This document shows positions 10,471 to 11,302 of a DNA stretch of 64,000 bases, in pieces. Numbering within the stretch: position 1 is the first letter of the stretch; each line of letters starts with the position of its first letter. The notes beneath the pieces were generated by a model. It was not told the origin of the DNA. It made no database searches and worked only from the letters and a program-made list of their open reading frames with translations. Made by a program: the position numbers and the translations under genes. The stretch comes from Anaerolineae bacterium (lineage in GTDB: Bacteria; Chloroflexota; Anaerolineae; Aggregatilineales; Aggregatilineaceae): positions 62,001-126,000 of the forward strand of contig JAHDWP010000002.1 in assembly GCA_023382715.1 (NCBI GenBank), in the 5' to 3' direction.

Positions 10471-10541
10471 GCGGGCATGGTGTAGCGGTAACACAACAGC
10501 CTTCCAAGCTGTTGTCACGGGTTCGAGTCCCGTTGCCCGCT
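10471..10541 (+). tRNA. tRNA-Gly(TCC)
   Basis: A 71-nt cloverleaf: acceptor GCGGGCA/TGCCCGC, D arm with GTGTAGCGGTAACAC, anticodon stem ACAGC/GCTGT enclosing CTTCCAA (anticodon TCC), T arm with GGGTTCGAGTCCC, discriminator T. CCA is not encoded. All stems pair. Confidence 0.95.
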
Positions 10542-10614
10542 CTGTCAGCGCCCGGCGCATGTGCTGGGTGCTGAGTTTAGCAGGGCCTGTAGCTCAGCGG
10601 TGAGAGCAGCCGGC

Positions 10615-11082
10615 TCAAGGCAGCAGGTCTAAGTTGAGATGAGGATGGTGCAGTTCAGCATGGCAGTTGTGACATACCAGAATGCACTTGTCAATTTCTG
10701 CTAAGACAGCTTGATATGTGCGATTCGACAGGGTTCGCATATCGAGTTTGAAGCTCTTCATGGTTGGATCTGTGTGATGAAATGTCAGCGCAGCCAAGTT
10801 CTTGTTGTAGCCGCAAATCGCACAGGTACCACCAAGTGCAGTGACAAGCTCTAGCTTTCGGGAAAGTCCTCTGCTCTTCTGAGCGTCGTAACTTTGATGG
10901 TGCTGATTCTTACATGTAGGCGAACAAAACTTGGTTTGTCTACCTGTTGGCGGAGTCCCGCAGACGATGCAGCACGCAGAGTCACGCAGGTGTCCCTCGC
11001 TCAATACGATCTGCGCAGCATGGGCTGTCTGGAGAGTAATCACCAGACGAAAACCTGTCAAATTCGGGGGAGCCTTCGTCAT
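10615..11082 (-). CDS. HNH homing endonuclease encoded antisense within the tRNA intron
   Basis: 155 residues from the ATG at 11082. The recognisable part is an HNH nuclease: CIVCG and FCSPTCKN (zinc-finger-like), then GGTCAICGY, the catalytic FHHTDP, KCILVCHNCHAELHH. Two Cys pairs should hold a structural zinc. The gene runs opposite to the tRNA and intron, and its TGA stop is formed across the 5' splice junction (10617-10615). The first roughly 30 residues would overlap the ribozyme core, so the true start may lie later. Base composition is poorer in GC than the neighbours. Role as the intron's homing enzyme is inference. Confidence 0.8.
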   Translation of the reverse strand: MTKAPPNLTGFRLVITLQTAHAAQIVLSEGHLRDSACCIVCGTPPTGRQTKFCSPTCKNQHHQSYDAQKSRGLSRKLELVTALGGTCAICGYNKNLAALTFHHTDPTMKSFKLDMRTLSNRTYQAVLAEIDKCILVCHNCHAELHHPHLNLDLLP

Positions 11083-11220
11083 CGGACATGGTAATCCCGA
11101 GCCAAGCCCCGTGACCTGGGGAAGGTGTAGAGACTGTACGGCAGGCCCCCTCAATCGAGGGGTGAAGAGACAGTCCAGCCCACAAACCCGAAAGGGGCAG
11201 CGAAAGCTGTAGCTGGGAAG
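10616..11220 (+). ncRNA. Group I intron (IC3-like) in tRNA anticodon loop
   Basis: 605 nt. The core lies at about 11055-11220: AATTCGGGG (P3 side), AATCCCGAGCCAAGC (11093-11107, Q-like), GTGTAGAGACTGTACGGC (11125-11142, R-like), ACAGTCC (S-like). P7 pairs GACTGT 11132-11137 with ACAGTC 11170-11175. P8 is CCCCTC/GAGGGG at 11147-11162. Two GAAA-capped hairpins follow at 11187-11196 and 11198-11209, and the intron ends in G 11220. GTCTGG/CCAGAC at 11027-11048 may be P2. The core closely resembles the Azoarcus tRNA-Ile intron. The HNH gene fills the 5' part. Confidence 0.9.
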
Positions 11221-11268
11221 CATAACCGGTCGGTCGCAGGTTCGAATCCTGCCAGGCCCACTCCTCAT

Positions 11269-11302
11269 AACCGCGCCGCACACGAGTCTTGCGGCGGTTT
11301 TT
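11269..11302 (+). terminator. Rho-independent terminator after the tRNA operon
   Basis: AACC and GCCGCA (11275-11280) pair with TGCGGC (11290-11295) and GGTT across a 9-nt loop, leading into TTTTT at 11298-11302. It starts 8 bases after the tRNA. Confidence 0.7.

Follow-up and report, generated by a model that had tools for sequence, protein, structure and literature searches.

An antisense HNH gene within a group I intron at U33|C34 of a tRNA-Ile2(CAU) gene from an Anaerolineae bacterium, and its relatives in other bacteria and in phage contigs

Group I introns are known in bacterial tRNA-Ile2 and tRNA-fMet genes, with tRNA-Ile2(CAU) examples in Acidovorax and Burkholderia (tRNAscan-SE 2.0 paper, PMC8450103), and the tRNA-fMet intron of Synechocystis is described, in a 2014 review, together with its endonuclease (Bonocora and Shub 2001, cited in PMC3984707). 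Antisense homing endonuclease genes have been reported from group I introns in myxomycete nuclear rDNA, among them I-DsqI (PMC9548176), and F-CphI and the psbA intron of cyanophage S-PM2 provide the case termed 'collaborative homing' (PMC6083498). The 2014 review states that every phage intron known at that time was in a protein gene, although phages have many tRNA genes (PMC3984707). How ribozymes and endonuclease genes come together as a single mobile element has so far been argued from a few cases.

The locus described here lies within the window, the 64,000-nucleotide stretch of an Anaerolineae genome that was analysed, and shares its tRNA type with the tRNA-Ile2 introns of Azoarcus, Acidovorax and Burkholderia. 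However, it differs from the Azoarcus type in following U33, not U36, and in holding an antisense HNH gene in its P1 loop. The Azoarcus intron is reportedly inserted after U36, from which the initial annotation expected a different insertion point here; that expectation is correct, and the U36 site has its own example in one relative (L083, below). As in Synechocystis, going by the review's account, a bacterial tRNA(CAU) intron carries its own endonuclease gene. The I-DsqI gene likewise lies opposite the ribozyme strand in a peripheral loop, P9.2 there and P1 here; however, that type is a eukaryotic His-Cys box gene found in rRNA genes, with spliceosomal introns within, whereas the present gene is of a bacterial and phage HNH type and sits in a tRNA gene. 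The F-CphI layout, a free-standing endonuclease gene by an intron-bearing target, is not that of the window, where the HNH gene is nested, but it is also found in phage relatives (L225, L235, L256 and L268). The S-PM2 system has a protein-gene target and an EndoVII motif, whereas here the probable target is tRNA(CAU) genes and one HNH family occurs both free-standing and nested.

The locus comprises the following elements:

10471..10542 (+): tRNA-Gly(TCC), conserved neighbour upstream of the interrupted tRNA (tRNA search; family comparison)
10583..10615 (+), 33 nt: 5' exon of tRNA-Ile2(CAU), positions 1-33, 3' end CCGGCU33 (rejoining; intact homologues in 10 family genomes)
10616..11220 (+), 605 nt: group I intron, last base G (RF00028; ends set by tRNA rejoining and P1)
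10612..10616 (+): P1 5' strand GGCU|C, the exon end and first intron base (P1 comparison)
10615..11004 (-): HNH endonuclease ORF in the P1 loop, 129 aa, proposed TTG start, TGA stop at 10617-10615 overlapping the splice junction (PHROG; homologues in place; dN/dS; AlphaFold)
11007..11200 (+): ribozyme core, as the extent of the Rfam match (RF00028)
11022..11026 (+): P1 3' strand, internal guide sequence GGGCU (P1 comparison; compensatory change G31-C to A31-U)
11027..11048 (+): P2 hairpin, 11027-11032 with 11043-11048 (both-side changes in 5 of 6 pairs)
11132..11175 (+): P7, the guanosine-binding helix, 11132-11137 with 11170-11175, enclosing P3' and P8 (A-U/G-C/U-A covariation)
11221..11260 (+), 40 nt: 3' exon of tRNA-Ile2(CAU), positions 34-73, 5' end CAUAA (rejoining; intact homologues)

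Joined, 10583-10615 and 11221-11260 yield an intact 73-nt tRNA(CAT) that ARAGORN folds as such, so that the faultless rejoining claimed in the initial annotation is exact to the base. Its central reading, a CAT tRNA with a group I intron, is borne out but was incomplete: the antisense HNH gene had been missed and the isotype, Ile2, not named. By default ARAGORN does not detect the interrupted gene; when permitted to place introns, it sets the boundary wrongly and labels the window gene Leu(CAA), a call that was rejected, together with one of Val(AAC), as an artefact of its intron placement. Because ordinary tRNA finding misses or misnames such a gene, genomes of this kind appear to be without tRNA-Ile2.

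Two intact CAT tRNAs, one of elongator-Met type (GGCGACG...) and the initiator (TGCGGGG...), are among the 42 tRNA matches in the genome; a Met or fMet isotype for the interrupted gene is ruled out, as both are intact elsewhere. The interrupted tRNA has both C4-G69 and C5-G68, which are known TilS determinants, and tilS is found in the genome. Since the elongator and initiator tRNA-Met are accounted for and these features are present, the interrupted gene is, as judged from its sequence, the third CAT type, tRNA-Ile2(CAU), and the sole copy detected in the genome. This tRNA needs lysidine at C34. Another intact CAT tRNA of the same type, which the initial annotation held would speak against its reading, is not among the 42 matches, nor is any other Ile2 or Ile(TAT) tRNA; a search of the genome for a second copy with an Ile2 T-arm pattern also gave no match, the pattern being too strict to weigh. 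The genome is a draft in 82 contigs from which some tRNAs, such as Ile(GAT) and Ala(TGC), were not recovered, so that the absence of a second Ile2 copy is likely rather than proven. These gaps leave a little room for the idea that the interrupted gene is an inactive pseudo-tRNA, unspliced, whose function another isoacceptor supplies. We regard this as scarcely credible, given that no such isoacceptor was detected, that tilS is retained, that the ribozyme shows covariation, and that the spliced sequence is 95-99% identical to its intact homologues in the family.

The 605 nt between the halves, taken in the initial annotation for a group I intron ending in G, reach an RF00028 score of 57.2 bits (cut-off 50; E 6.8e-12; 11007-11200, plus strand), the sole RF00028 match in the genome, and the covariance-model check suggested there thus came out positive. 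Membership of group I is supported by this core, with P4, P6, P7, P8 and motifs Q, R and S, above the Rfam cut-off, by a P1 with its U.G pair, a terminal G and covariation in P3 and P7. The break after U33 also stands: in P1, the guide at 11022-11026 (GGGCU) has GGCU|C as its pairing partner, placing the insertion point at U33|C34 with U33 in the splice-site U.G pair, which is kept in 20/20 sequences compared. Acidobacteriota and phage copies have exon GACU with guide GGUU, a compensatory change from G31-C to A31-U. When an alignment of 14 sequences was scored against a hand-written P1-P9 structure, 93.2% of cells in the core were paired and 23 pairs showed changes on both sides, equalled by 0 of 500 shuffles; shifting the pairing partners along abolishes the covariation signal. 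Most of it lies in P2, P6a, P7, P9 and P9.2, and double changes occur in both P3 (100% of cells paired) and P7 (86.9%). Chance is not the explanation, because relatives have the same intron at the same site and tRNA locus, beside tRNA-Gly(TCC), and because the core carries compensatory changes.

Among the 18 genomes of the family, 10 carry the tRNA uninterrupted beside tRNA-Gly(TCC), one of them from the same genus, and 5 carry the intron. The intron is thus optional: its site is fixed but its presence varies among close relatives, as is characteristic of a mobile intron. One genome of the same genus has an intron of 238 nt without the HNH gene, in flanks 88-90% identical; the HNH gene is likewise optional, being found in 0 of the 17 other family genomes, including all four other family introns. 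Across the class Anaerolineae, 67 of 298 sampled genomes give group I intron matches. Two loci (L003 and L059) are initiator tRNAs with the intron at the same U33|C34 site. The suggestion that this might be an undescribed Chloroflexota example is upheld insofar as relatives occur in the same class and phylum; its implied rarity is not, as the site recurs in several phyla and many phage contigs. As separate observations, group I introns are found in other Anaerolineae tRNAs, including Asn and Tyr (L040-L043, L050, L051, L058, L062, L063 and L065), with a sense-strand HNH in L051 and a different sense-strand ORF in L063, and within an apparent thyX (flavin-dependent thymidylate synthase) in two genomes of the same order (L002 and L004, in G030 and G040).

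About 370 nt of extra length, the antisense HNH frame, takes up most of the intron. HNH families of PHROG (phage) match the ORF with E 2.8e-20, and the best Pfam HNH match (E 0.23) stays below the cut-off. The alignment of the family conserves CxxC...FHH...CxNCHxE-H, and the window copy keeps every conserved Cys, His and Asn. The AlphaFold model of the protein reaches pLDDT 89.6, and its predicted fold is weakly similar to solved HNH structures, the best being Gme HNH (Foldseek, E 0.2). The start codon is uncertain; TTG was chosen in a frame that is open up to 11283, and a start of the long ORF at 11283 was rejected, since homologues begin near the first Cys pair. The endonuclease of the Synechocystis tRNA-fMet intron is said to be encoded on the sense strand and to have a fold other than HNH, unlike the present one. 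L045 and L047 hold homologues of 67-69% identity at the matching position and in the same orientation, and further nested antisense copies are present in L084-L088, in four viral contigs and, again in the same place and orientation, in L275 from a different Chloroflexota lineage.

Possibly, a working ribozyme carries the HNH gene as a non-mobile passenger, inactive in homing and being lost. Such a history would suit the four family introns that lack the gene, the failure to recognise a sigma-70-like promoter on either strand, and the frequency of decay: L081 has two in-frame stops, the ORF of L061 is truncated, and the introns of L009, L044 and L061 retain HNH fragments whose alignment beats 200/200 shuffles. 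These fragments and stops indicate that the gene has been gained and lost. However, the window frame is intact with all its conserved residues, and its divergence from L047 (window copy L001) is concentrated at third codon positions, with changes at the three positions of 29/17/56 and a dN/dS of 0.08. By this substitution pattern the HNH gene is under purifying selection, and we consider the passenger reading unlikely.

We consider it probable, instead, that the locus is a tRNA-Ile2(CAU) gene with a mobile group I intron whose HNH enzyme is aimed at CAU-tRNA genes; splicing, expression, cutting and homing are steps that we infer. The intron would be transcribed with the tRNA, P1 (exon GGCU|C with guide GGGCU) and then the P3-P9 core would fold, and self-splicing followed by end processing would give the mature tRNA, in which TilS would convert C34 to lysidine. 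The 129-aa protein, a putative homing endonuclease expressed from the minus strand, would most likely cleave CAU-anticodon tRNA genes that lack the intron, in the anticodon loop or close to it; when the break is repaired from a copy that has the intron, intron and HNH gene would be inserted together. The insertion site, U33|C34 in CUCAUAA, is nearly invariant among CAU tRNAs, which would explain a spread between Ile2 genes and initiator genes such as L003 and L059.

Turning to viral sequences, members of the HNH family in viral contigs are mostly free-standing within tRNA arrays. A CAT tRNA is the nearest tRNA in 13 of 20 viral loci with at least four tRNAs, where 2.0 would be expected, a proximity that gives no cut position and whose probability is optimistic because the loci share ancestry; nearly all HNH genes in this test are antisense and within ~70 nt of the nearest tRNA. 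A scan of IMG/VR with the 3' end of the intron joined to GCATAA matched 54 contigs. Of these, 49 have two exons that can be joined to give an acceptor stem of 7 bp, in 20 clusters at 90% identity, and 54/54 match a covariance model derived from the bacterial introns; of 15 viral contigs tested, 3 exceed the Rfam cut-off, the others falling below. The HNH gene is nested antisense in four contigs (L238, L240, L243 and L244), and a second layout, with a free-standing antisense HNH gene ~10 nt or less downstream of a tRNA that carries the intron, is seen in L225 (with its near-copies), L235, L256 and L268. In some viral loci the intron at this site holds no endonuclease gene, and the HNH gene stands next to the tRNA. 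The L090/L244 contig encodes phage exonuclease, endolysin and helicase and gives an RF00028 match of 56.9 bits, other intron contigs encode tail-fibre or other phage families, and the viral assignment of the remainder rests on IMG/VR. No named phage isolate with a U33|C34 tRNA intron was found in phage records at blastn sensitivity.

The HNH genes of tRNA arrays in T5-like, FelixO1 and PAK_P4 phages belong to the same wider family and adjoin tRNAs, but are 35-45% identical, lie outside introns and stand mostly by tRNAs other than CAT (for instance Ala, Lys, Ile, Cys and Asn). Such relatives are what might be expected if the HNH gene had entered the P1 loop by chance, through intron-targeting or relaxed insertion, with no functional tie to the tRNA site. 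We think this very unlikely, since most of the closest relatives, whether free-standing or nested, have a CAT tRNA as their neighbour, and since nested copies from separate phyla share both the loop and the orientation.

In a scan of bacterial and archaeal genomes, the nested antisense form was found in CAT tRNAs of Chloroflexota, of Acidobacteriota (L084-L088) and of one Patescibacteria contig, the copy in the last being decayed. In L082 (Anaerolineales) a free-standing antisense copy with a damaged motif (CHNYHMEIR) lies between tRNA-Gly(TCC) and an intact tRNA-Ile2, and in L083 (Granulosicoccaceae) another lies upstream of a tRNA-Ile2 with an intron after U36. In the HNH tree, L082 is the sister of the clade of nested Chloroflexota copies (91/82); nested copies do not form one clade, deeper branches are weak, and a single and a multiple origin of nesting are both compatible with it. 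Copies that stand free beside a CAT tRNA, whether intact or intron-bearing, may have preceded the nested form or may have escaped from it, and the tree is compatible with both directions. Somewhat more tentatively than for the window locus, we favour a single CAU-tRNA-aimed HNH lineage that would move among bacterial chromosomes and the tRNA arrays of phages. It would take three forms, two of them free-standing, by a tRNA that is either intact or intron-bearing, and the third nested antisense within the loop of P1 in a U33|C34 group I intron.

The literature search found no publication on group I introns in tRNA genes of Chloroflexota or phages, which does not prove that none exists. As far as the literature searched shows, three things are new: a tRNA intron with an antisense HNH gene in its P1, the recurrence of this arrangement in several phyla, and the tRNA(CAU) introns of many phage contigs. 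Twenty distinct tRNA introns in phage contigs speak against a restriction to protein genes as a general rule and, if the 54 viral contigs are read correctly, phage tRNA group I introns would be a widespread and so far unrecognised class. The loci would also form a natural series for the assembly of a mobile intron: across several bacterial phyla and phages, a single small HNH family shows every arrangement to be expected at this tRNA site, which makes order and direction testable.

Some further features of the viral contigs and the HNH family stand apart. In the L090 intron, ~47 bp before the ribozyme core are tandemly duplicated, giving two possible guide sequences. Intron-like matches lie between pieces of a capsid gene in Pelagibacter phage HTVC120P and a related uncultured phage (L272 and L274), and some viral contigs (L241, L269, L257, L262, L236 and L268) have two or three introns matching model R1. 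Finally, a protein from a Syntrophomonas MAG (L089) has the N-terminal zinc-finger part common to the HNH family joined to a different C-terminus.
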